Source: Rhabditoides inermis (Eukaryota > Nematoda > Chromadorea > Rhabditida > Rhabditidae). From it: a DNA stretch of 64,000 bases. Position numbers and translations under genes: made by a program. Below the pieces are notes generated by a model. The model made no database searches. It was not told the DNA's origin and saw only the letters and a program-made list of their open reading frames with translations. The stretch covers positions 1,568,501 to 1,632,500 of the forward strand of contig CAWZYM010000151.1 in NCBI GenBank assembly GCA_963966185.1, written 5' to 3'. Below, in pieces: positions 34,256-63,637 of the stretch. How positions within the stretch are numbered: position 1 is the stretch's first letter; the number at the start of each line of letters is the position of its first letter.

Positions 34256-35114
34256 TGCCTGAAACATGCATGCACGTCGGTGCGTGGTGATTTCGTGCGA
34301 ACTTGAAAATTTCATTACCACACGGTTCTGATTGTTCTGATATACGCCTCTGTTCCTTTAAACATCGGCTTTACCCAAGCTTTTTTCCAAATAGATGGGA
34401 TTTCTCGAACGGACATGGACATAGCGAAAAGATTCGTCAGTGGAACGGAGATGGAATTGGAATGAACTGTTTGTTTTAGAAACACATTATTTATGCCATC
34501 TGGAAAAGTGTTATACTTAAAATCAAATAATCAAGTTTGGAAACAATTTTATGAACTCCAATGAATGTAACTTCGATCGAGGTGAGTGCGAGAGTTTAGG
34601 CAAGTCAGTGCCAGGTGGCGATATTGCGATATACCGAATCAAAATAGTCAGCAAAGATTTCGCATTTATCGAGCGTGCCGTGGATGAATTCGCCATTTTG
34701 ACAAACTGCGCCGATGCCACCGTCGAGATTCGATTTATTTTGAACATCGCGATAGAAGGCTGATTTATTACCATTAAAAATTAGTTTAGCCTCTCGCTTG
34801 CAATTCCAAGTATGTATTGTTTTGCGTAGGCGATGCTGTGATCTATCAGATTGAATAGAGTGGGGTCTTGTTTTTGAAAGTTTAATCGCCTGTCGCTTCA
34901 GCTTTTGTAGATAAGGAGGCAATAAGCGGGGGACTTATATCAATCGATTTTCCTCTGGGCCTGTGTGCACATTAGTGTTGTGGCTAGGGATTGCGCCCGT
35001 TGAGATGATCTGTTCCGGGTGGTGGTGAAATGATTTTAAGAAAAAAACTGTTTGTTTTGATTTTTTCCTATCAGCATTACCTAAACTCTTTTTCATTTTC
35101 ACACGAGCAAAACG

Positions 35115-35195
35115 TTTGGCGGTGACCGGAATCGAACCCGCGAAGCTCGGAGGTCACAACGCAGCGCACATGTACTGAGCCATGAAGCACGTAGA
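35115..35195 (-). mobile_element. tRNA-derived SINE head
   Basis: On the minus strand, TGGCTCAGT (box A) and GGTTCGATTCC (perfect box B; plus coordinates 35128-35138) are spaced as in a tRNA. No intact acceptor stem was found. Present in duplicate copy A but absent from copy B. Confidence 0.6.
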
Positions 35196-35292
35196 GGACA
35201 TGTGTTAGGTTATTTGACTTTTAAAGGCACAGGGGCGTTTAGTGTTACCAAGGTTGATCGAAATTCACTTATGAGAACTTGGCAAAAATGAT

Positions 35293-35372
35293 TGCACGTA
35301 GCGGGAATCGAACCGGCGTAGCTTGGTCCGTGAAACGTGAGCGTTACCACAACAATACAACCACATGTGCTG
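35293..35372 (-). mobile_element. tRNA-derived SINE head
   Basis: On the minus strand, a perfect box B (GGTTCGATTCC; plus 35304-35314) follows a tRNA-like region with a weak box A. It sits about 180 bp from the previous head and, like it, is missing from duplicate copy B. Confidence 0.5.
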
Positions 35373-36390
35373 TCGAACTCATATCGACGTGATGCGCACA
35401 GAGCTCAACTTTTGGATAAGCATTTCGGCGCAAAGTTCGAATTCGCCTTACCAAGCTTCGCACGTGCAGATGTTGGTAAGCGTGTAGGTAACGCGGAAAC
35501 ACCGTTCTTTCACGTTTTCTTTGATTGTTTCGTGTATATATGGCTCAAGCAATGTTCCAAAGTCAAAACTAAGCGCCACTGTGCCTTTAATAATACTCTG
35601 AGTCAAAAAGTCGCCTGTAAAAAATATTTCTAAGTCCAATAAAAGTACATTCATTATCTTTTGAAGGACTTCCGCAAAAAAGAGTTCGTTTTATCCAACG
35701 TATTGCAACAAAAGCTCATGCATTTTTATCAACCGAAAAAGTAAACAAACCTGCTCCAACAGTTGATCGATCAGATACTAACGCCAACTTTTAGGACTTA
35801 TCGAATAGTTGTTTATTCGTTATCCTTTTTGTCAATCTACGAATAGTCGAATAGTTGTTTTATATTTATTCGTTATCCTTTTTGTCAATAAGCAGGATAA
35901 TGGCGCCGAAAGATGATAATGTTATGTCGGACAACAACGACTGTAACTCAAAGAATAGTATATTGTATTGATTTTGTGACGAATCAGAGAGAATTCCACG
36001 ACTTGTCAGGCCCTGTCAGCCAGAAACGACACGGCCGAAGCAAGCAAGCAGCAGGTAGGCGTTACTGATTTTATCCTGTGCTGTCTCTGCAGTAGGTGTC
36101 ATGAATGTCAATATAAATAATTTGTCACAGTTTACACTGTGCAACACATGAAGTACGAGAAAATTCATTCAACAAATCAGCGTATCAATATGTGAAACTA
36201 CCGGTGTCAACTAATATCGATTGATGTCCGGAAGAGGCGAGGGCGAGTCTGGGGAAGGCACTTGTTAACACAAATCCACGTTTCCTTGATAACTTTGAAA
36301 TCGAACATTCGTAATTGATAGTGAAAGTGATAGGACGTTTAAGTAAAACGACGGACTAGTCCCCTCTGAAATGAAAATTATGTTGTTTTT

Positions 36391-36921
36391 TTACTGAAAA
36401 CAAAAAAAATTGACTCCAATGAGCAGATAGAAAAAAGTTGCCACGCAGAGAAAGAAAGACGATGACGGGTTTGCAACCTGAAAACACTCATATTACAAAT
36501 ATTGCGAAATAGCTTTCGAAATCAAACTTACATTTGCACAGAGTTTCGCCAAGAAATCGTTACAAAGCCAGTAGCTGCCAAGAACTAGCCTAAAGTTATC
36601 AGTGATACTGCGAAAACTAACTACATTGAGGAATAATGAATAGACTGCTCACCACCCAAACCTTACGACGTGAAAAAGTTTGGAGCCCAGCCTGTTTCCA
36701 CCATAAAGATCATCTAATATCAGATAAGCTGGCGAGAACACCAACCATACTGTGAACTGAAACCTATTTAAATGGATACTAAATCAATCGATGTGAATCA
36801 CCATAGCGCTGGTTTGCCAATACCACTGCAGAAGACCATATATGGGAGAACCCAAGAAGAAGAAGAAAAAGAAAATTTCGATCCAAGTAGGTGGTGTGGA
36901 TATTTCCGGTTGTTGCGGCAT
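36391..36921 (-). CDS. Small four-helix membrane protein of unknown function
   Basis: Not recognised. Starting at ATG (36919-36921) four exons join in phase. The first is MPQQPEISTPPTWIEI followed by a Phe-rich helix and QWYWQTSAM. The second is FTVWLVFSPAYLILDDLYGG. The third is LVLGSYWLCNDFLAKLCAN. The fourth is VANPSSSFFLCVATFFYLLI, ending FFCFQ and a stop at 36391-36393. The product is about 120 residues with four hydrophobic segments. An AG acceptor lies just before the ATG, so an upstream untranslated exon is possible. Exons 3 and 4 resemble exons of the gene at 31859-33196 (compare YACSPSLLVV with VANPSSSFFL). A damaged copy lies at 46530-46885. It is within duplicate copy A. Confidence 0.5.
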
Positions 36922-37519
36922 CCTATTATGAAAATAACAAGGGACTTATGAATTAACAGAAAGAAAAGAAAACTGTAAAAGAATTGAGTGTGGCACTGAT
37001 ATGGATTATCTCAAACTTTTGATAAAGTTTCCCATTTCTCAATCGCAGATAAGAAAAAGCCGTGTGTTTATCTGGTAGTCACTCTCCTTTTTCAATATTG
37101 AAAAACACCACCTAATCTATTTCGCAATCACAAACGTCAAGAAAAAACATAACTATATATTTATTTCATACTTTGATCAAATCAACAACACTCGCAGACT
37201 AGCTGGGGGCAAAAGCAACAACCAACGAAAACACAACGATAGCAATTCCACTCACAACTGCGGCACCTGAACAAGAAGATTCGTGCGATATATGGTAAAC
37301 AGGGCCTACCGTACTCGACTCTAACATTCAAACATTCGCGGCGGGACCTAGTTGATGAACTGCAGGAGCTTGTCAGCCATCGCCCTCCCCGTCTCGGATG
37401 ACAAATGGATGCTCGCACTGCTTGTCGTCGATCACCACCTGACCCTTCGGAAGTCGTTCCACCATCTCCAGGCCTAGACGACGTGGGTGGGTCCTCATCC
37501 CTTCCTCCCTCTCCCTCTC

Positions 37520-37562
<43 letters not shown>

Positions 37563-38055
37563 ACCGTATTCCAGCGGGCACCATCCGTCCTCCGCGCCGT
37601 AGTAAAAGTGGACGAGGTCGCGGCACGAGATGAGAGACGTGTCCAGCTCACAAACCTGGAAGGGATATTTCAGAGAGGGGAGAGGAGAGGGGGAGAGAGA
37701 GAGAGGTAGGAGACAGAAGGAGATAGAGTAAGAGAGAGGAACAGCCACGTTGTTCGAGCTCGTCGTTGCTCATGTGGACAATGTTGCGGAATACGTGCAT
37801 GTGGGAGAAGCTGTGCAGCCGAATCCAGCACCTCCGGCGGCACGGACGGGCCTGCGACAGTATCAAAGCAACAGGATATGGTGCATTGTCGTCAGTGTTT
37901 CCCTTCTCTTCTGCCCTCTCTACCTCATCTCTCTTTTCTCCCAATTGCTCGCATTCTTCCCTTTTATCTCTTCACACTTTCCTTCAAAACGCTAGTGTAT
38001 CGGTAAAGAATTCTGAAGAGAGTTTTGCGTGACTGACCAGTGAGATTCCAGCTCA

Positions 38056-40106
38056 ATTCAATTCAATTCAATTGTTTATCATTGCGTATTCAGAAAACAT
38101 ATGGGGACAAAAATATGTGGCTGTAATAAGTGGTGCAAACGTATTTTGTGATTAAGATCAAATCAAAGAATGGTACTTAAAACAGATACAAATGCGTATG
38201 GGACAATACAACAGACATATGTATAATGAAATGAATGTGCTCTGTTGCATATACTGGGGAGCCCGTGCCCCGTAACGATCAGGAAGCGCGGATGCGAGAT
38301 GGTTCAATCATGCATTTTCTAACCTCCTCTTTGTAAGAAACCGGTTGTCTCTGATAGCTATAATGTTAGATGGTAAGGAATTCCATATTCGAATTTTGCG
38401 GTGAATGAATGTCTGTGTTCTAACGGACGGATCAAAAGAGGGTACGATTCGGTGGCAGTGAGAGTGTCTCGATGATGTGGATATGATATTATAGATGGCG
38501 GATGAGTCAAAGACGGTGCGACCGTGTACAATTTTATGTATGTAGGCAATATCATTGACTGCTCGTCGTGACTCGAGAGTCTCCAAGCCTAGCAGGCAGA
38601 GTCTGGCAGAGTATCCTAGATTGAAAATGCCATTTCTATGGCAGATTCGTCTGATGAAATACCGTTGAACGCACCCTCAATAAGATTCACTGAGCGCACA
38701 TCGGTGGGATTCCAGAGCTCAGTACAGTACTCCAGCTTACAGCGGTAATATGTCACAAATGCTTTGCAAAGAACGGCTAAGCTGCGGGTACGTATGCTCT
38801 TAGGAAGTCATTGATTCCCCAAAGTGTGCGATCGACAATGCGTTTAATGTAGTCATCGAAAGAAAGGCGAGTAGAGATATACACACCAAGATCTTTAACA
38901 CACTCTGGGGTTTCTAGAGTCACTGTGCCAAGGGAATATGCATACAGCGGATTTCGCTTGCCCAAGTGAAGAACCTGTGTTTTGCTAGCAGATATGGTGA
39001 GACCCCACTCAATCGACCACTCAGAAACACAGTCGACTGCTTGCTGAAACATAGTGCGCGCGGTGAGATCGAGGGGACAGAACGCGTAGGACACTTTTAA
39101 ATCGTCAGCATACAATGCGCAGCGAACATAGTCCGGCAAACAGTCGACAATGTTGTTAATAAATACATTGAAAAAGAAGAGGCCCGAGACAGCTCCCCTG
39201 AGGAACACCGCAATTCACAGTGCGTGGGGAGGATAGAACACTGACTGACAAGTACCACGCGTTGTTCTATCGCACAGAAAAGATTTGATCCACGCGAGTG
39301 CACTGCCGCGAACACCACGTGAGTGGAGCTTCTTGAACAACATGGAATGATTTATGCAATCAAACGCCTTTTTGTAATCTACATAAAGGCAGTCGACTAC
39401 TTGCCCGTCGGTGAGATCACGCGACACCACTGGGCATGACACTCGACGAAGCTGTGCGCATGTGGATCGGCCCGCGCGGAAACCGAATTGGCGAGAGGTG
39501 AGAAGGCAGTGTTTTTCAAAGTGCTCTGTCATCTGCGCCGCGCAAATCCTCTCCAGCAGTTTGGAAAGTGTGGCAGTGAGAGCAATGGGACGGTAGTTGA
39601 CTACCTCACTCTGGGACTCACCCTTGTGGATGGGTCTCAACATACCCTATCTTCCATATAGGAGGAACGACACACGCGGAAAGAGACTGCTGGAAGAGGA
39701 GAAAGATTGGAGTGACTACAGAGTCTACAGTGTGCTTCAAGAAAATATGCGTTATCCCATTTGGTGACGTATTGATTTTTGGCGCGAGTGAGCGTATTGT
39801 TTTGGCAATGAGAAATGTGGGTAATGTGAAATTGATTGATTGAATGGGAAGAATCAGTGAGTGGCGCACCAGACGGGATTGGTAGATTAGATTAGAATAC
39901 ACTGAGTCAAAAAACTCTGAAAAAGCCTCTGCCTTCTCACTCTCATCATGAATGTACACGCCATCAGCAGAGCTTATTGGGCCGATTCCATCTGCGGGGT
40001 TCAGCCTGGATCGAACGTGGTGAAAGAATTTTCTCTGTCCCTTAGAGAGCAGACTCGACTCAAGCTTGGTGTTCCATGCGTACAGCGCGCGTCTCAGATC
40101 TGCCTA
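38056..40106 (-). mobile_element. CR1-type LINE inserted in the LDAH pseudogene
   Basis: Absent from duplicate copy B, where the flanks AGCTCA and CCAGCC are directly joined, so the insertion limits are clear. The minus strand reads VVNYRPIALTATLSKLLERI, GFRAGRSTCAQL, VDYKKAFDCINHSMLF and YADDLKVSY. Downstream come ISASKTQVLHLGKRNP and a C-terminal RIWNSLPSNI block, as in CR1/Jockey-clade elements. Frames are broken in several places. The 3' end carries a five-base tandem tail (ATTCA repeats on the plus strand, 38056-38072). No clear target duplication. Confidence 0.85.
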
Positions 40107-40167
40107 CCAGCCACTTCTTGAGTGCTTGAGTCCAAAGGGCAGGTAGTCGACCCACCAGGTGAGCGAC

Positions 40168-40259
40168 TTGGACAGCCAGTCATTCGCGTCCAGCGTCTAC
40201 ATCAACACAGTCCTTGGACAGCCAGTCATTCGCGTCCAGCGTCTACATCAACACAGTCC
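40168..40259. repeat. 46-bp tandem duplication
   Basis: The unit beginning TTGGACAGCCAGTCATTCGC occurs at 40168-40213 and again at 40214-40259. It spans the edge of an LDAH exon and its intron. Copy B (48110-48155) has only one unit. Confidence 0.9.
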
Positions 40260-40829
40260 AGTCCAGACACGAATTACATTCAGCTTATATAATGAAATCT
40301 GTAGTGAATAGTGATATTTAATTTATACGAATCGCTGTATAATGCAGCCATGGTGAAGTTTGAATCTTGAATGAATGACTTCGATGATTCACCATCTCAT
40401 AAGCAAACAAATACTGCCCCCTTCTTTCTCTACACAGCGATACCTACACTTATATGTCTATTATTCGAGGGAATTTCTTCACTCTTAACACAGTAGACAT
40501 AAATCGATAACCGCTGATGAATGGGCAACCGACCGCAAGCAGTCTGCGCAGTCGGATTCCATTGGGGGAGGTGGCCATGCGTTCGACAGTGGGGAACAGA
40601 CCGACCGCCTTGCGCAGACCAAGGTCGTCCTTCACGTACGGCACGATCCTGCACGAAAGGCACGCGTCTCTTATCTGCTGGCGACACGGAGAGACGTGGA
40701 CAGTGAGTGTGTCTCACCTCAGCATCATGAAACTGCCGATCGAGTGTCCAAACATGTATACCCTGTGTCCCCGGGGCAGGTACTCCCTCACAAAGTCCAG
40801 CTTGTGCTACGTGATAAGGGATATTCAAG

Positions 40830-43800
40830 AGTGTATATTCTAGCTTCCTGGTTCCGATCAGCTCAAGGGCGACATCGATTCCATTCTCCCACGTAGCTAC
40901 CGCCTTCGAGTCGTTGTGGATCCGCACGGCCACCGAGAGGATCCTTGACGGACTCCTCCGTTTTAACGGCGGGCCGGAGCCCGACATCACATTCAACGAG
41001 GAGAACACATTTCCAGCGGACGAGCTCAAGCCGGACAGATTCGAGATGATCGGAATCAAGAACCCGTTCCGACTACACCCGGCGGGAGCGGTGCTAGGAA
41101 TTTGCATCGGCGCCAATGACAACAACATGATCGTCGAGCTGTGCGATTATGATCCCGGGCAAATTGAGGCAGGACTTGCGGTGAGTGGAGAAAGACGGTT
41201 CCGAATATAATTATATGATCAGATACATCTCCATCGATAACACGTCCATGGAGTGGTCGACAAGGAAACTGAGGATGAACAAGACGCCCTGGTCGGTTCC
41301 TAGGCACTTTGTCTGGGTGCTTGGATTGAGGCCCACTCTGGACGCCTTGAACAACACGGAAGTGACACTCGAGCTGTCCAGGAACCATACCAACCCAACC
41401 AGCATCGTCACGTTCTGGAGGGCAGACAGATTCGTGTATCTGCCGCCGATTGCGATGGAGAGGAAGCTGGCGCTCGTCCGAAACGCCTACACGCCCCATG
41501 GAAGGAGTGCAACAAGATGACGGTGTTCCAACCGGGCTGCCCGACGCCGGTGACAGCGGCGCTGTCGCTAACCAAGTACTTCATCGACAACACATCCGAG
41601 AAGAACCGCTGGACCGCCATTGTGGCTCGACCATTCCTCTACCCAGGCCGCTTCTTTGCGGGGAGCCTGGCCTGCAAGCAGGGAAGGGAGGATCTGAGGA
41701 ACGAACTGTCACTGCTCACACAAGGACAGCGAATGGAAGAGGTCTTCGCATTGGAAATTCACGCACTGACGCAGGACGAGACGCAGTGGCTGGAAGACAG
41801 ATGCGGCGCCTTCACCCGCTTCGACGAGGAGCTCTCCGGGCCGCGGATGCAGTGCGTGAGTTAGGGAAAATATTATCGGATATTAAAGGAACAGTGGCGA
41901 CTTAATCCTGCAACTAGCTCTCTTGAACGCGCATTACCACTCATGCAAAACATTTGCCGTAGACAGGACTCGAACCGGCGAGGTCTGTGCCACTACGGCG
42001 CACACACGCATTGAGCCACATAGTAAGTGATCGTGCTTCTTTCGTCTGGAATTATGTGGTTTTTTCCCATTTCTGCAGTATTGAAGAGTTCAACGGAATG
42101 GAAGTCGTGGTGGGACCAATTTTGAGTTTGAAATAAAATATTGCAACAGCGTGTTGCAACATTTGAAAGCAACGGGTACTCGTTGTTCTTTCTCAAAAAT
42201 CGATTAAGATTTTGATTTATATGATTCTTTTAAACATTCCGAATCAAAAATAAGTCGCCAGTGTACCTTTAAACGTGTGTTTTCAGACCTTCAGTGCAGC
42301 GCTGACGGCATTGCACATGTCGGAGCAGGAGCACGAGGACAACAAGACCCGAGCGATGAAGGTGGCCTGGACGAGGAACGACTCGCCCCTGCTCATGCCA
42401 GTGATCGAAGTGGATCAGACTCGGCAGGGATCTGGGTGGGAGCCGATGCGGAGACTCGTCGTGTACCCACCGGCGGGAAGAGGAGGACGTCCAATCATCC
42501 TGCGAATCGTGTCCGCTCACTACTCAATATCCGGCGCTATGAAGAAGGTCAAGATGGTCACCGTCTGCGAGCTGTGGAACAGTGGGCGATCTGCTGAGTG
42601 GAAAGATCTTCTACAGGATCTGCGCCTCTCCGTAAGCCATCAGTACGATGCTACATGAACTGTGTGCAGAAGAGAGATGCGATATGCAATGTCCGATGGA
42701 CAGGAGTTCCGTGAGTTGTGAGAAGTGGAGAGAGGAATTATTTAATGAATTTCAGCCAGACTCATTGAGGACAAGAAGGTGGCGCTGAAGAACGGCGCCA
42801 TGGGAGAGACGACCCTCATCGACATCACCTCAGTGATCGGGGAGATGCTCAACCGCGTGGAGGAGAAGCTCTCCGACGAGGAGCGAATCGCCGTCCGAGA
42901 ATACCTGGAAGGTAGTAGCATACAACAAGCATTATTATGTATACAACCACATTCTACCCATAATGTTTAGGCAGGGAGCGACGTCGAGAGGCGATTCGCA
43001 AACCGGAGGCTCTGCAGAACATGTCGAAGAAGGAGGCGGACGAGTACCGCATCAGTGAGCGGAAGTGCTCGAAGAAGTCAGGAGCGGTGATCCGACTGCT
43101 CATGGACCACTGCTTTCCCCCATCATGCTTTAGAGAGGAGTGGGAGACGAGCGGCAGCTGCCCCCGCACAACACATGCGGCAAGAAACATTCTCAAGCAC
43201 TGATGCACGGGAACACCGGAGTGCCGACGTTGCTGCTCTCGGGCGCGAATGTGTTTCTGGCAACACTCAAGTTCACCTTCCGCTCGCACCCTGCCATCAT
43301 CGAGGTGATCTCGAATCTATTCTACAACCAGAAACTCAAGCCCGGAACACTGTCGCGAGACAGGACCATGCTGCTCGATCTGCTGAACAAGAGACACGAC
43401 GAGCTCCCCATCGTGTTCATCCACAACCCGCATCCGGACAAGAAGGCGCAGGATAGCTTCTCGCGTTACAACGAGAAGGAGGAAGAGATCGCGGTGAACG
43501 TGATCTGCGACTTACACGGGAAAGGTGAGTCGAGAGACACTTGGGAATCTACTGTTCTGTTTGGGAGTCGACCCCGGGAACATCCTAGTGATTTCACTCT
43601 ACAAGGAGCAGAAGAGACGGCTGGAGGCCAGATTCTCGCCGAACACGGTCCGAGTCGAGACGGTGGACGGACGCCAGGAAGCGGAAGCAGAGATTGTGGT
43701 GCTTCTCACCACCCGAGGAGGCCCGGCCGAGGCCACCATCCCCTCCCGGCAGGACGCACAGGATGTCTCCGAAGACACATTCACTGGATCTCGCCAGGTG

Positions 43801-44005
43801 AGTAGAGATGAGGGAGAGATTCTAGTCTCATCTTCAGAGGACCACCGTCGCTCTCACACGAGCCCGCCAGGGTCTAGTGCTGATCGGCGACGTCGGCTTC
43901 CTGTCAACGAGAAACGGATGGAGGAACATCATCTGGGAGATCAAAGCGAGAGGAGTGATGGCGAACGAGGACAACTACAGGCGGCTGTTCGAGAACTCGT
44001 GGTAG
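40830..44005 (+). pseudogene. Decayed SF1 (UPF1-like) RNA helicase
   Basis: Long readable exons resemble a superfamily-1 helicase of the UPF1/SMUBP2 type. They include GDERQLPPHNTCGKK (motif III, about 43146), LKFTFRSHPAIIEVISNLFY (motif IV side), VRVETVDGRQEAEAEIVVLL (motif V) and VALTRARQGLVLIGD (motif VI). The end is WRNIIWEIKARG...NSW with a stop at 44003-44005. No GxxGxGKT (motif I) or DExx (motif II) was found. The reading jumps from an unrelated charged stretch (EYRISERKCSKKSGA) across a 48-bp intron to motif III. The frame does not continue across 41181-41222 and shifts again near 41500. The left end abuts the duplication junction at 40806 with no start codon. A tRNA-like head lies in its 41.85-42.28 kb intron. 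I read it as a 5'-truncated relic; assembly errors or a divergent functional protein remain possible. Confidence 0.65.
41951..42022 (-). mobile_element. tRNA-derived SINE head
   Basis: On the minus strand, TGGCTCAATGCG (box A) and GGTTCGAGTCC (perfect box B; plus 41966-41976) occur at tRNA spacing inside a helicase intron. The stem pairing needed for a functional tRNA was not seen. Confidence 0.55.
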
Positions 44006-45005
44006 ATTGGAGGGTAGTGTAGCAGGGGTGGCTACTACCTAGAAACAGATAGATTGTGTAGATATTCTATTCAGTTCTTTTGTACATAAGTCTCGAGCTT
44101 CATTTTTGAGAACCGGGTTGGAATCTGGGTGAGAAATGTAGCAAGTGAGCATTGGTTTTATGGTATGCTTGCAGTACTTTGAGTGTGAGCTTGTTTTATG
44201 GCATTACTTTCGTACTGTGAGGGAGTATCTGTTTTTTTTATGCCATTTCCGATGTAGTATGAGATCGGACAGTTACTTGTTGACTTTTGTTGCCTTACAA
44301 TCATTGTTTTGAGACACGGTCTCTAACGAGATAAAGCGGTTGCGCCGAATTAGTGGAATGTTGACTTACGGACTTACGGAAATGGCTTACACCGTTGGCA
44401 TGCTGCTTTCCTCCTCAGGAACAACAGAGGAAGCGAAGTGCAGCGGCGACTTCAGCTGCAGGCAACTTCAGCTGCAGGCGACTCCGGCAAGGAGGACAGC
44501 AGAGGGAGTATCGCCGAGCACGCCAAGGAGGACAGCAGAGGGAGTATCGCCGAGCACGGGCGAGACGGATCGAGGTATACGGTATTAGATAGGTGTACGG
44601 TAGTTACTGAAGATGGAAACTAACATCTTCCATTCAGGTGCTGGGAGTTCCAGTAACAGTCAGCGATGGAACCGAGACGCGCAGTCAAGTTGCGACTCTC
44701 AGCGATCTTCCAAGATCCACTAAGAACCAAGCCTCGTGGCGGAGGCGCCACATCAAGCACGCCAAGATCAAGCCGCTCAATCGGAGTCAGCTGTGGTCGG
44801 CGGAGAGTCGCCCGGCGACACACTCAAGATCAAGAACGGAGTCAGCGGGACTCGGCGCACCAACATGCCCTTCACCGGAGGTAACTGGTATGGGGTAGGC
44901 GGGAGTGTGTGTGTGTGTGTGTGAGAGAGTTGTATAGGAGGCTAGACTTTCGATGAACGGGTTCAAATCCAGTCCGTCGGGAGCCGGACTCATCAAAAGG
45001 GGAGG
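44006..45005. other. Unassigned stretch with a short tandem repeat and polypurine tract
   Basis: No gene was recognised. An exon-like GC-rich part (44420-44575) contains two copies of a unit with GGAGGACAGCAGAGGGAGTA in tandem, followed by a GTATAC donor-like site. A second GC-rich part runs from 44638 to about 44885, but no frame resembles a known protein. A GT microsatellite lies at about 44908-44922. Near 44960 GGGTTCAAATCC resembles a tRNA box B. The purine run AAAAGGGGAGG (44995-45005) directly precedes the LTR at 45006, as a polypurine tract would. The block may be the 3' internal end of an LTR retrotransposon. Confidence 0.4.
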
Positions 45006-45285
45006 TGTGACAGAGAGACACTCTCTGTCTGCCGCATCGCACTCTACGAGAGAGAGAGGCGGGTGATCTGCTGATACACCGGCGGGAAGCGCGGGACAAA
45101 CGTCGCTCGTCCATTGGCCGAGACGCCGGTTCCAGCCCCGCCCCCTTCCCTATATAAGCCACCTACACCACTTAGTCGGGGGTTCAGTACGGCGGTAGCT
45201 GATGCCCAGTAACTAGTCCTGAGACCTCCGGTCTCACCATAGACCACCTCTCTATTCCTTGAGGGGTGCCATCCCCGTGTTCACA
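45006..45285 (+). mobile_element. LTR-like sequence (3' LTR or solo LTR)
   Basis: A 280-bp unit begins TGTGACAGAG and ends GTGTTCACA, so its ends are the short inverted pair TGTGA/TCACA expected of an LTR. It contains a TATA-like CTATATAAG (about 45153) and is preceded at once by the purine tract AAAAGGGGAGG. No second LTR and no gag/pol domains were found, and the five flanking bases on each side do not match. It is therefore probably a rearranged remnant. Confidence 0.5.
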
Positions 45286-45360
45286 TTGGTCTTCCCATTA
45301 TCTATTCGGAGAAAGAGGGAGAGAGAGAAAAAAAATCATATGCCAAACACTTGTCACTAT

Positions 45361-48300
45361 TAGTTTAGCATCTCGCTTGCAATTCCAAGTATTTATTGCT
45401 TTGCGTAGGTGACGCTGTGATCTATCAGATTGAATAGAGTGTGGTCTGCTTTTGAAAGTTTAATCGCCTGTCGCTTCAGCTTTTGTAGATAACGAGGTAA
45501 AAAGCGGGGGGCTTTTATCTTTATCAATCAAATTTCTGGGCCATTGTGCACAGTAGTGTTGTGGCTAGGGATTGCGCCCGTTGAGATGATCTGTTCCGGG
45601 TGGTGGTGGAATGATTTTAAGAAAAAAACTGTTTGTTTTGACCTTTTTTCCTATCAGCATTACCTAAATTCTTTTTTTGCATACTTAACATTTGCAAATG
45701 TGTTAGGTTAATTTGATTTTACTAATACTCTGAGTCAAAAAAGTCGCCTGTAAAAATATTTCTATGAAGTTCAATAAAAGTACATTCATTATCTTTTAAA
45801 GGACTTCCGCAAAAAAAGAGTTCGTTTTACCTAGCGTAGTGCAACAAAAGCTCATGCATTTTTATCGATCGAAAAAGTAAACAAACCTGCTCCCACAGTT
45901 GATCGATCAGATACTAACGCCAACTTTTAGGACTTATCGAATAGTTGTTTTATTCGTTATCCTTTTTGTCAATCTACGAATAGTCGAATAGTTGTTTTAT
46001 ATTTATTCGTTATCCTTTTTGTCAATAAGCAGGATAATGGCGCCGAAAGATGATACTGTTATGTCGGACAACAACGACTGTAACTCAAAGAATAGTATAT
46101 TGTATTGATTTTGTGACGAATCAGAGAGAATTCCACGACTTGTCAGGCCCTGTCAGCCAGAAACGACACGGCCGAAGCAAGCAAGCAGCAGGTGGGCGTT
46201 ACTGATTTTATCCTGTGCTGTCTCTGCAGTAGGTGTCATAAATGTCAATATAAATAATTTGTCACAGTTTACACTGTGCAACACATGAAGTACGAGAAAA
46301 TTCATTCAACAAATCAGCGTATCAATATGTGAAACTACCGGTGTCAACTAATATCGACTGATGTCCGGAAGAGGCGAGGGCGAGTCTGGGGAAGGCACTT
46401 GTTAACACAAATCCACGTTTCCTTGATAACTTTGAAATCGAACATTCGTAATTGATAGTGAAAGTGATAGGACGTTTAAGTAAAACGACGGACTAGTCCC
46501 CTCTGAAATGAAAATTATGTTGTTTTTTTGCTGAAAACAAAAAAAAAATTGACTCCAATGAGCAGATAGAAAAAAGTTGCCACGCAGAGAAAGAAAGACG
46601 ATGACGGGTTTGCAACCTGAAAACACTCATATTACAAATATTGCGAAATAGCTTTCGAAATCAAACTTATATCAGATAAGCTGGCGAGAACACCAACCAT
46701 ACTGCTGAACCAAAACCTATTTCAGAAGGATAATATGGGAATCGATGTGAATCACCATAGCGCTGGTTTGCCAATACCACTGCAGAAGATATATGGGATA
46801 ACCCAAAATGAAGGTGATTAAGAGAATGTTGATCCAACTCGGTGGTGTGGATATTTCCGGTTGTTGCGGCATCCTATTATGAAAATAACAAGGGACTTAT
46901 GAATCAACAGAAGAAAAAGAAAACTGTAAAAGAATTGAGTGTGGCACTGATATGGATTATCTCAAACTTTTGATAAAGTTTTCCGTTTCTCAATCGCAGA
47001 TAAGAAAAGCCGTGTTTATCTGGTAGTAACTCTCCTTTTTCAATATTGAAAAACACCCTAATCTATTTCGCAATCACAAACGTCAAGAAAAAACATAAAT
47101 ATATATTTATTTCATACTTTGATCAAATCACAACACTCGCAGACTAGCTGGGGGCAAAAGCACGACCAACGAAAACACAACGATAGCAATTCCACTCACA
47201 ACTGCGGCACCTGAACAAGAAGATTTGTGCGATATATGGTAAACAGGGCCTACCGTACTCGACTCTAACATTCAAACATTCGCGGCGGGACCTAGTTGAT
47301 GAACTGTAGGAGCTTGTCAGCCATCGCCTCCCCGTCTCGGATGACAAATGCATGCTCGCACTGCTTGTCGTCGATCACCACCTGACCCTTCGGAAGTCGT
47401 TCCACCATCTCCAGGCCTAGACGACGTGGGTGGTCCTCTCCCTTCCTCCCTCCCTCTCCCCTCTCTCTCTCTCTCTCCCTCCCTCTCCCTCTCTCTCTCT
47501 CTCTCCTCCTCCTCCTCTCTCTCTCTCTCTCTAACCGTATTCCAGCGGGGCACCATCCGTCCTCCGTGCCGTAGTAAAAGTGGACGAGGTCGCGGCACGA
47601 GATGAGAGACGTGTCCAGCTCACAAACCTGGAAGGGATATTTCAGAGAGGAGAGAGAGAGGGGGAGAAAGATAGAGATGGAGAGGAGAGGGGGAAGAGAG
47701 AGGTAGGAGACAGAAGGAGATAAGAGAGAGGAACAGCCACGTTGTCGAGCTCGTCGTTGCTCATGTGGACAATGTTGCGGAATACGTGCATGTGGAGAAG
47801 CTCTGCAGCCGAATCCAGCACCTCCGGCGGCACAGACGCGCCTGCGACAGTATCAAAGCAACATGATATGGTGCATTGTCGTCAGTGTTTCCCTTCTCCC
47901 CTGCCCTCTCTATCTCATCTCTCTTTTCTCTCACACCATTCTTCCCTTAATCTCTTCACACTCATTCACTTCCTTCAAAAGGCTAGTGTATCGGTGAAGA
48001 ATTCTGAAGAGAGTTTTGCGTGACTGACCAGTGAGATTCCAGCTCACCAGCCACTTCTTGAGTCCGAAGGGCAGGTAGTCGACCCACCAGGTGAGCGACT
48101 TGGACAGCCAGTCATTCGCGTCCAGCGTCTACATCAACACAGTCCAGTCCAGACACGAATTACATTCAGCTTATATAATGAAATCTGTAGTGAATAGTGA
48201 TATTTAATTTATACGAATCGCTGTATAATGCAGCCATGGTGAAGTTTGAATCTTGAATGAATGACTTCGATGAATCACCATCTCATAAGCAAACAAATAC

Positions 48301-48696
48301 TGCCCTCTTCTTTCTCTACACAGCGATACCTACAATTCTATGTTTATCATTCGAGGGAATTTCTTCACTCTTAACACAGCAGACATGAATCGATAACCGC
48401 TGATGAATGGGCAACCGACCGCAAGCAGTCTGCGCAGTCGGATTCCATTGGGGGAGGTGGCCATGCGTTCGACAGTGGGGAACAGACCGACCGCCTTGCG
48501 CAGACCAAGGTCGTCCTTCACGTACGGCACGATCCTGCACGAAAGGCACGCGTCTCTTATCTGCTGGCGACACGGAGAGACGTGGACAGTGAGTGTGTCT
48601 CACCTCAGCATCATGAAACTGCCGATCGAGTGTCCAAACATGTATACCCTGTGTCCCCGGGGCAGGTACTCCCTCACAAAGTCCAGCTTGTGCTGC
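45361..48696. repeat. Segmental duplication, copy B
   Basis: Counterpart of 34783-40806 in the same orientation. It lacks the LINE, the 46-bp tandem duplication and two tRNA-like heads seen in copy A. It also lost about 180 bp within the small membrane gene. To the right, LDAH continues uninterrupted past 48696, so copy B retains the fuller gene context and copy A is the likelier derived copy. Confidence 0.9.
46530..46885 (-). pseudogene. Damaged copy of the small four-helix membrane protein
   Basis: Near-identical to 36391-36921 but missing the DNA that encodes the SYWLCND exon and part of the exon before it (about 180 bp lost around 46665). The first exon remains readable as MPQQPEISTPPSWINILLIT, with several substitutions relative to copy A. 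The terminal exon (VANPSSSFFL) is present. Without the missing exon no intact protein can be made. Confidence 0.65.
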
Positions 48697-49896
48697 ACTT
48701 GTTCGTCCAGCGAGAAACGCTCTGAAACACCGGAGAGATACAGTACCACAACTTCATCTACTGATGCAACGACTATCTCCTATACCGTTGTACTTCGGTC
48801 CGACTCCCTGGTGGCGCAGCTCGGTGGGCAGATTCACGTGGTTCAAGTGACAAACCGTGTAGAACAGGTACCTACAAGGAGTCTCTCTCTCTCTCTCTCT
48901 CTTTCTTTCCCTCCCTCTCCCCCCCCCCCCCCCTCTCTCTCGCCCCTCCTACTTACTCCACTCCCTTCTCTCCCGTTCGCTCATCCCGAGCCATCAGGTT
49001 CTTCAGCACTCTCTTCCCGAAATCCGTGTAGAACCCCTCGTTGCCCGGATTCCCTGAAAACACTCTCTGATTGACAGCTAGACAAAGAAACAGAAACAGA
49101 AATATAGACACGCCGTGCCGCTCACCAGGTATCATGAGTATGACGCATCGGTTGTCCTTGTCCCCGAGGCTGTCTCGAGTGAGCATGTGCGGGGAGAGGT
49201 CTGTGCCCATCACACTCATCTTCGTCCATCTACCGCCCACCAACTCAGAGAGCGGGGGCGAATTAGCAGCAAACTAACAGCGAGTTAGCAGCGAAGTTTC
49301 AAAAAGTTAGCTGTTCCCTAGCAGCTAATTCGCCGTTATCTAGCCATTGTTTCGCCACTAATTTGCTGCTAATTAGCGGCACCAGGATCCGATCAGCGTC
49401 CCCCTCGCTTTCTCGTTCGTTGTATTGATTTCCGTTGTTGCATTCAAAAACACTGATATGCATACACTTATTTATCTCAATTATGCATAAGGAATGAAAT
49501 TCACAATATTTTATCATAATTGACGTGTCGTCTTGGTTCTTGGTTCTTGATCTTGATATACATGATGACGATTGACGAATCTTGATAACCTTCAAGTAGC
49601 CGCGTTCTTTCTCGAGTACTGAACCGCCCGGATACAGTTTCTGAAAATAAATAGATTGAAGTAGTAATCACGAAACATACATGCATATGAGATATGTTCG
49701 CGACAACATGTTACATGTACATAATAATATGTATGGTAAACGAATAGCAAATAGTTCAAATAGTTCATGTACATTCACGGAAACAAAAACGAAGACGAAG
49801 AGGATGAGCAGGAGGAGGAGGAGGATGTGGATGAGAACGACGACAACGACTTCATCATAATCATCGTCATCGTCTTCGTCATCGTCATCGTCGTCC

Positions 49897-49954
<58 letters not shown>

Positions 49955-50369
49955 CCCCCTCATCCTCCTCTTCGTCATCGCCATGTACTACTTCATGTTT
50001 CAAACAACAATCATACAGCATAAGATATCGTAAACAAACAAATACAACAAAAACGGCAACAAATTTCGAAAAAAAAACACAAGTCCCCAGAAACTGGGCG
50101 GATGATGACGTTTCTATTTAGCCACAAATTAGCAGGTGCGCGGCTAACTAGCACATAACTAGCGGCTAACTATCGGCTAACTAGCGCGGCTAACCCAGCG
50201 ACTTTTTGCGCGAATTAGCACCAAAGTAGCATCTAATTTGTAATTCGCCATTAGTTCGCCATTAATTGGTAGTTCGCTGCTAATTCGCGAGACGCCTATT
50301 TTTCGCTGCTAGTTCGCCCCGGCTCTCTGAGAACACCCACTCCACCCGACGAGACAACTCCCGCAACAT
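47292..50369 (-). CDS. LDAH: Lipid-droplet-associated serine hydrolase (LDAH)
   Basis: An alpha/beta hydrolase of lipid droplets. Exons (high to low) are 50337-50369, 49126-49243, 48957-49053, 48786-48871, 48604-48721, 48378-48534 and 48029-48128, then exons down to 47292. Features in order are VILMIPGNPGNEGFY (oxyanion/NPG motif), VYMFGHSIGSFMML (GxSxG nucleophile elbow), LFPTVERMATSPNGIRL, FYYGTEDGWCP (acid residue) and CEHAFVIRD (catalytic His), ending LLQFIN. Length and motif spacing match the vertebrate protein. ATG at 50369 gives an N-terminus MLRELSRRVEW, followed after a 1.09-kb inverted-repeat element by LVGGRWTKM. One extra C in the DGWCP exon relative to copy A shifts the frame, so this copy is either lightly damaged or carries a base-call error. 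Confidence 0.82.
49244..50331. mobile_element. 1.09-kb terminal-inverted-repeat element in the first LDAH coding exon (introner candidate)
   Basis: The ends CTCAGAGAGCGGGGGCGAA (49244) and, inverted, CTCAGAGAGCCGGGGCGAA (to 50331) match at 25 of 27 bases and are flanked by AA on both sides. Near both ends are many variants of GCTAATTCGC / TTAGCAGC, like subterminal repeats. The centre holds a CAT microsatellite, and no transposase frame is seen. Removing the element plus one AA restores an open LDAH frame (EWVLVGG). On the LDAH strand, a GT donor in the target (TGG|GTGTTC) and the AG at the element end (CTCTCTGAG|TTG) would splice it out in phase. Confidence 0.8.
49897..49952 (+). repeat. (CAT)n / (ATG)n microsatellite
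   Basis: About 18 CAT triplets inside the inverted-repeat element. Flanking imperfect CAT/CGT triplets extend it, and the poly-Met/Asp/Ile frames are artefacts. Confidence 0.95.
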
Positions 50370-50678
50370 ACCTGCAACGTACCGTAACATGCAAACGTAT
50401 ACACAAATCTATCATGCAAACACACAGAGACACCGCTCGCACGGTTGGGAATATTCCTCATCATTCAAACCGCATGCAAAACTTGACAAAACAATTCGTA
50501 AAACGGTAATAATTTATCCATCCAAAACAGATCAGCGTACAACATATTACAACTTTTTCACCGTACACAGAGCATAACTACCGTATTATGGGAAAGAATA
50601 AGTTAGAGAGGGACAGTATGAACATAGCAATGCATCAATCGATGAATCGATCGATCAACCAACAAATCAATATTCAAA
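50370..50678. other. Spacer between LDAH start and PSMD14 stop
   Basis: About 300 bp without a gene. It should contain the LDAH promoter or an untranslated first exon (an acceptor-like GCAG precedes the ATG on the minus strand) and the 3' UTR of PSMD14. No TATA box or canonical AATAAA was noticed. Confidence 0.4.
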
Positions 50679-52998
<2,320 letters not shown>

Positions 52999-53851
52999 TT
53001 CTGAACTAAACAAACATCGAGTAAGGTATGAGAATATGAACACAACTTCCAAAACACATGAAAATTTGTGAAGATGAAACCAAAAACAAAAGAAAATTGG
53101 AAGCAAACGTTGTTTTTGAATTGTCATCACCGTTCCCCGCCCAGCGAAAAAGTGTCGTTCATCGGCGGGCGAGTGTGCACGCTTTGCGTATTTGAATTAC
53201 ACCGACTCCGCCCACAATTCGATCATCTGTTTGCTGCTGGTGGTTCGATTTCGATTCAATACTATTTCCAAACCAGTTTTCCCTCTAGTTTGTTCAATAT
53301 TCGAATACTATTACATTCGGTTTAGACATACCTTACTTAATGAATATGATATTTCCTCCATTAGTGTGATTACCTCGCCTGCTCTCCTCTCTTCGTCCGA
53401 CACACACTGATCGTCAACAAATAACAACCCCATATTGACCTAGTTTTTTATGTACGCTTCCTCCTCATCATGCGTGTCTTAACGGAGAATCTTCATATTC
53501 GCCAATACCACACCGCCTGTCTATTATATGTTTCTGCTGGTCAATTATATACAAGTTTGTTCAGAACTATGATTGAATCTTCTCGCGATGTGTGAAGAGC
53601 CAAGACCATTTCCCGTTTGTTTTACATATAATCGTCTGACGAATTGGGGCATGCGCATTACTCATTTCCATATCTAATGCATCAATCGGGCATGATGCTG
53701 CTTGGGCACGTCATTTCGTTGCATTGGTGGTTGCTGCGCGATCGTACGCAGTCAGCCAGCATTCACGTCCTTCTGCGCCGTTTTTGTTTGAAGTGGCTAG
53801 CGAGAGAGGGCATTGTATTCTCGCCCGCATATTGCCTCGTGGCTTGCGAAC
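52999..53851. promoter_or_regulatory. Divergent promoter region between PSMD14 and MGAT1
   Basis: An 850-bp gap separates the start codons of two genes on opposite strands and must contain both 5' UTRs and promoters, possibly shared. No TATA box or repeated operator-like motif was found. The inference comes only from gene orientation. Confidence 0.45.

Positions 53852-59990: not shown

Positions 59991-63637
<3,647 letters not shown>

Follow-up and report, generated by a model that had tools for sequence, protein, structure and literature searches.

Can a DNA transposon that lands in a coding exon be removed from the transcript as an intron, or does it simply break the gene? This question is raised by an element that interrupts coding exon 1 of the lipid-droplet gene LDAH in the nematode Rhabditoides inermis, within the 64,000-nucleotide stretch of DNA analyzed here (hereafter, the window). 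The initial annotation proposed that it is introner-like, i.e., that it can be spliced as an intron whose donor lies in the exon and whose acceptor is carried by the terminal inverted repeat (TIR). We find it very likely instead that a non-autonomous TIR DNA transposon of low copy number inserted here recently, probably in the heterozygous state. The coordinates of the relevant features are given in Table 1.

Table 1. Features of the LDAH locus and of the inserted element, in window coordinates.
Feature	Position	Strand	Remarks
LDAH coding exon 1, 5' part, from ATG to the insertion, one AA copy included	50332..50369	-	Conserved N-terminus
LDAH coding exon 1, 3' part, past the insertion, one AA copy included	49126..49243	-	
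LDAH coding exons 2-9 and introns 2-8	47292..49053	-	Boundaries set by hand from homologues
Non-autonomous TIR transposon, 1,088 bp	49244..50331	.	
TIR, low-coordinate end, 27 bp	49244..49270	+	25/27 identical to the other end
TIR, high-coordinate end, 27 bp	50305..50331	-	Inverted-repeat pair
AA target site duplication, copy 1	49242..49243	.	Single AA in the uninterrupted copy
AA target site duplication, copy 2	50332..50333	.	AA on each side of the element
Proposed donor GT, TGG|GTGTTC	50335..50336	-	3/6 match to GTRAGT
Better donor GGA|GTGGGT	50335..50340	-	5/6 match; frame shift with terminal AG
Internal acceptor TTTTCAG|A	49641..49647	-	Full match to the 3' splice-site octamer of C. elegans (consensus in PMC4889670)

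The host gene, the element and its family

The LDAH protein retrieved 33 homologues, of which the best eight are nematode proteins with 60-70% identity (from Mesorhabditis, Caenorhabditis auriculariae, Auanema, Ancylostoma, Haemonchus, Necator and others), and no relatives in the prokaryote contig collection. The insertion falls within the block RRVEWVL-VGGRWTK. We regard this first exon as real, since the block is well aligned across nematode LDAH proteins. On the gene (minus) strand, the element lies 12 codons and 2 bases into MLRELSRRVEWV-L-VGGRWTK. The window also holds a partial second copy of LDAH at 37049-40808, which repeats 47000-48694 in pieces at 90.6%, 98.9%, and 98.7% identity (48400-48694 is 100% identical in another search). 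At E 1e-20, the exons upstream of 48694 had no counterpart at positions 35001-46000. This partial copy reflects either a recent local duplication or gene conversion.

The structure described in the initial annotation was confirmed in all its parts: the length of the element, its 27-bp inverted ends with 25 identical positions, the AA on both sides, and the location in LDAH exon 1. The count of identical positions comes from direct reading, and the repeats can be extended to 30 bp at 90% identity. The end sequence, inverted at both ends, is CTCAGAGAGC[G/C]GGGGCGAA... The longest ATG/GTG/TTG frame within the element encodes 117 residues of low complexity. A six-frame Pfam scan of the element gave seven matches, all below the cut-off, and found no transposase. 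The element would have moved by cut-and-paste, relying on a transposase from another source.

The family is multicopy, which the initial annotation had named as the condition for a route of intron birth. A search of the genome (172.6 Mb in 599 contigs) with the element returned at least 54 matches, at least 11 of them nearly full length, LDAH copy included, so that the family consists of these copies and of fragments. The ten other nearly full-length copies have 86-95% identity to the LDAH copy, and in an alignment of 12 copies the eleven others are 92.9-97.3% identical to it when gaps are ignored. Using the TIR as a pattern with up to two mismatches, we obtained 41 matches, against 6 for a reversed-pattern control; three of the 41 (C376, C402, and C525) lie at places without an element match.

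Identical 2-bp flanks were found at 13 of the 16 sites examined, and were absent at C383, C406, and C16. They read AA (twice), TC, CA, GG (four times, three of them for copies in satellite repeat), GT (twice), TT, GA, and AG. For the C7 copy, whose right end is decayed, the edge was placed by hand, and the matching flanks of the C301 copy say little because this copy sits in a GA repeat. The target duplication thus spans 2 bp, varies in sequence, and gives no hint of a preference for GT.

Relative to genes, only one of the 16 sites could be placed in a coding exon, that of LDAH. Three copies lie in satellite repeat (C477a, C477b, and C340), and the others lie in repeats or are unassigned: by eye, one flanking repeat is common to C188 and C193 and another to C60 and C383, the C372 copy adjoins a dispersed repeat, and the C106 copy lies within a multicopy inverted repeat. 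At nine loci besides LDAH (C383, C406, C16, C477a, C477b, and C340 were left out), the longest frame crossing the joined site, one per locus, had no Pfam match above the cut-off, and two loci had matches near E 0.09, far below it; the test is weak, since the LDAH control itself scored 16.9 against a cut-off of 27. Its GT duplication and the open frame over the joined site made the C106 copy a candidate for a second exonic insertion. It was rejected because the region is multicopy, inverted, and repeat-like; it is related to C366 and C172 and has no Pfam match. On the open strand of C106, use of the nearest upstream GT would lose 10 bases (by eye).

The inverted ends, the short duplication, the multiple copies, the empty site described below, and the failure to find a transposase liken the element to non-autonomous TIR DNA transposons of the MITE type. 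Typical MITEs are shorter, and the element differs from them by its 1.09 kb and by a 2-bp duplication of varied sequence that is not TA. The length of the duplication hints at the EnSpm/CACTA (CMC) group, in which 2-bp target duplications and clusters of subterminal repeats are found. However, the termini of EnSpm/CACTA transposons start with CAC, whereas the ends of the element start with CTCAG (CTCAGAGAGC) and lack CAC. A candidate autonomous partner is an 8.3-kb relative on contig C406, whose ends match the element and whose minus strand holds several open frames in a row. Pfam gave only DUF6008 for this relative, below the cut-off, and no homologues of its pieces were found. TTAGC/GCTAA motifs are clustered at both of its ends (L045 1079-9373), and it contains a tandem array of 244-bp units.

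Two other candidate partners were discarded. The 6.4 kb between TIRs on contig C16 is not one element but a near-perfect 3.8-kb inverted duplication that includes the flanks. Each arm of this duplication (C16:106300-114600, 99.4% identity) holds a shortened element piece; the duplication is either an assembly foldback or a real palindrome. The 3.8-kb candidate on C106 is a copy of the element interrupted by a stretch that has an 826-codon open frame resembling a LINE reverse transcriptase (by eye).

The internal acceptor motif and the possible fate of the transcript

The element would mainly disrupt the copy of LDAH that carries it, since unspliced read-through from the gene stops after 29 residues. 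Some of the transcripts may undergo cryptic splicing, with the internal TTTTCAG and the terminal AG as examples of sites that could be used.

The former site leads to an alternative in which the element is exonised: transcripts would be spliced into the internal TTTTCAG, with 49640 as the first exon base, from an LDAH donor or by spliced-leader trans-splicing, and yield a truncated or fused product. Such an outcome would be compatible with disruption of the gene by a transposon. In its favor, the perfect octamer is kept in all 12 copies examined, although its conservation need not mean selection because these copies are at least 92.9% identical (gaps ignored). Splicing from the GTGTTC donor would give an open fusion of 11 LDAH codons and 113 element codons, but the better donor, GTGGGT, would lead to a stop after 25 residues. 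Among the three frames, the one that directly follows the acceptor is longest in 9 of the 12 copies, yet the longest frame past the acceptor spans only 25-57 codons in the 11 copies other than that of LDAH. Exonisation seems unlikely. The frame directly after the internal acceptor (window 49640, minus strand) reads K-L-Y-P-x-G-S-V-L-E-K-E-R-G-Y-L-K, and is perhaps a remnant of the last exon of a transposase.

The uninterrupted locus on contig C453

A search of the same genome with the flanks of the LDAH insertion identified contig C453, at 97% identity. A 7-kb portion of this contig is collinear with positions 45862-53752 of the window, in pieces at 96.5-98.6%, and the alignment has a gap precisely at the element and one other unaligned stretch, of 37 bases. 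The site reads through with a single AA, i.e., the element and one AA are absent, and a 180-bp query made of the joined flanks matches C453 at 99% over the junction. Deletion of the element with one AA had been noted to restore an open frame. It does so, and the resulting sequence occurs naturally on C453, which supplies within one assembly the kind of uninterrupted state that the initial annotation had suggested looking for in orthologues. The LDAH gene of C453 is complete, with 328 codons for amino acids and 8 introns (exon ends set by hand from homologues), and differs from the element-bearing copy by few coding changes. Relative to C453, the element-bearing copy carries one additional C in the C run of exon 8 (47542-47558); this shifts the reading frame, if it does not stem from an assembly error.

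C453 is most simply explained as the other haplotype. Since it carries the uninterrupted locus, the insertion in LDAH is most simply recent and polymorphic, and the element most likely sits on just one of the two homologous chromosomes. Alternatively, C453 could be a recent segmental duplicate, with the insertion in one of two paralogues, which would also be compatible with the insertion of a transposon. The partial second copy of LDAH shows that duplication does happen in this window. However, collinearity over the entire aligned region, bar the element and the 37 bases, is what is expected of a haplotig, as is the renewed match of C453 to positions 60000-62000 of the window (91%). A duplicate is distinctly unlikely. 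We queried six sites of the family for an uninterrupted state: besides the empty LDAH copy on C453, C106 had two uninterrupted relatives at 95%, and there was no full uninterrupted match for C7, C74, C372, and C301 (40 of 1,723 candidates were scored). Hence, polymorphism is indicated for the LDAH site only.

Proposed splicing of the element as an intron

Under the introner hypothesis, LDAH would remove a phase-0 intron from 50336 to 49244, with the donor in the exon and the acceptor in the TIR, and the family would be a source of introns. The arithmetic behind this proposal is right: the GT at 50336 pairs in phase 0 with the AG that ends at 49244, and their use loses one Val codon. The arrangement is, however, no more than chance would give. 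If an element ending in AG is assumed to land at each of the 955 coding positions of LDAH, 11.5% of them provide an in-frame GT at a cost of no more than one codon, and 17.0% at a cost of no more than two, so that one in-frame case can be due to chance.

By nematode standards, the splice sites are poor. The proposed donor matches GTRAGT at half of its positions, and the stronger GTGGGT, 4 bases upstream, would shift the frame when joined to the terminal AG and lead to a stop after 18 residues. Weak donors are tolerated in this gene, where one of the donors, GTATAG, also has 3/6 matches. The proposed acceptor, CTCTCTGAG, has a G at -3 and a C at -5, against a C. elegans consensus given in PMC4889670 as UUUUCAG/R, with the U at -5 as the most conserved position. 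The eight introns of LDAH on C453 have acceptors in CAG (5/8) or TAG (3/8), and never in GAG (0/8). Other features of the TIR are more favorable. The sequence of the end that would serve as acceptor is GCTAATTCGCCCCCGCTCTCTGAG; its CTAAT, located some 20 bases ahead of the junction, is branch-point-like and might act as such, and the CTCTCT run before the AG is part of the repeat, as originally described. The opposite end has CTAGT in the LDAH copy and CTAAT in some other copies. In the improbable proto-introner reading considered below, the CTAAT, pyrimidine run, and AG of the end facing downstream would allow an insertion with an in-frame GT upstream to be spliced. A target duplication of GT would do little to help, since the element begins with CTCA and the donor would be just GTCTCA.

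The layout is compatible with known introners. In the survey of PMC9860276, there are families with TIRs and target duplications for which the target provides one of the splice sites. Some families carry the 3' site and obtain the 5' site through the target duplication, others use sites of the adjoining exon, and in some cases codons are deleted or their number otherwise changes. The LDAH element resembles them as a TIR element in a coding exon with AG at its end and GT in the flank; it differs by its poor splice sites and by a single copy shown to be exonic. Families in that survey range from 5 to more than 2,000 copies, with median lengths of 30-654 nt, and the words "nematode" and "Caenorhabditis" are absent from its main text (PMC9860276). 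Among the titles listed in our literature search on introners and nematodes, none describes a nematode introner family. The family studied here is small, and a weak test showed no copy other than that of LDAH in a coding exon.

The introner-like status proposed for the element is not supported: a multicopy TIR family with an in-frame GT..AG pair, CTAAT, and CTCTCT is set against poor GT and AG sites, a better donor that breaks the frame, a better acceptor inside the element, and an arrangement at chance level. We consider regular removal as an intron very unlikely. We expect precise removal that keeps the frame to yield a minor product at most, the LDAH copy being spliced no more than leakily, and the element is probably an ordinary gene-disrupting insertion. 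Some points do count against an insertion that simply disrupts the gene, namely the CTAAT and short pyrimidine run before the terminal AG, the weak donors of LDAH, the chance that C453 is a duplicate rather than an allele, and the known splicing of transposons from exons in C. elegans. In that species, Rushforth and Anderson reportedly found in 1996 that Tc1 is spliced out of exons. The LDAH case is alike in being a TIR transposon in a nematode coding exon, possibly spliced out in part; it involves another transposon, and Tc1 has a TA target duplication. It is highly improbable that the element is a proto-introner, still polymorphic in a nematode, whose splicing keeps the LDAH copy functional.

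The locus offers a clean natural test case, with and without the element, in a conserved exon and with copies that can be distinguished by exon SNPs. Transposon insertion with latent or carried splice sites is among the listed routes of intron gain (PMC3443670), and in Caenorhabditis a source was found for none of 168 gained introns (PMC9169325). If the element were spliced, this would be a case of intron birth for which one assembly holds the uninterrupted copy as well, and it would come from the phylum in which that survey failed to find a source of gained introns (PMC9169325). If it were truly a proto-introner, it would reveal a transposon source of introns in nematodes.
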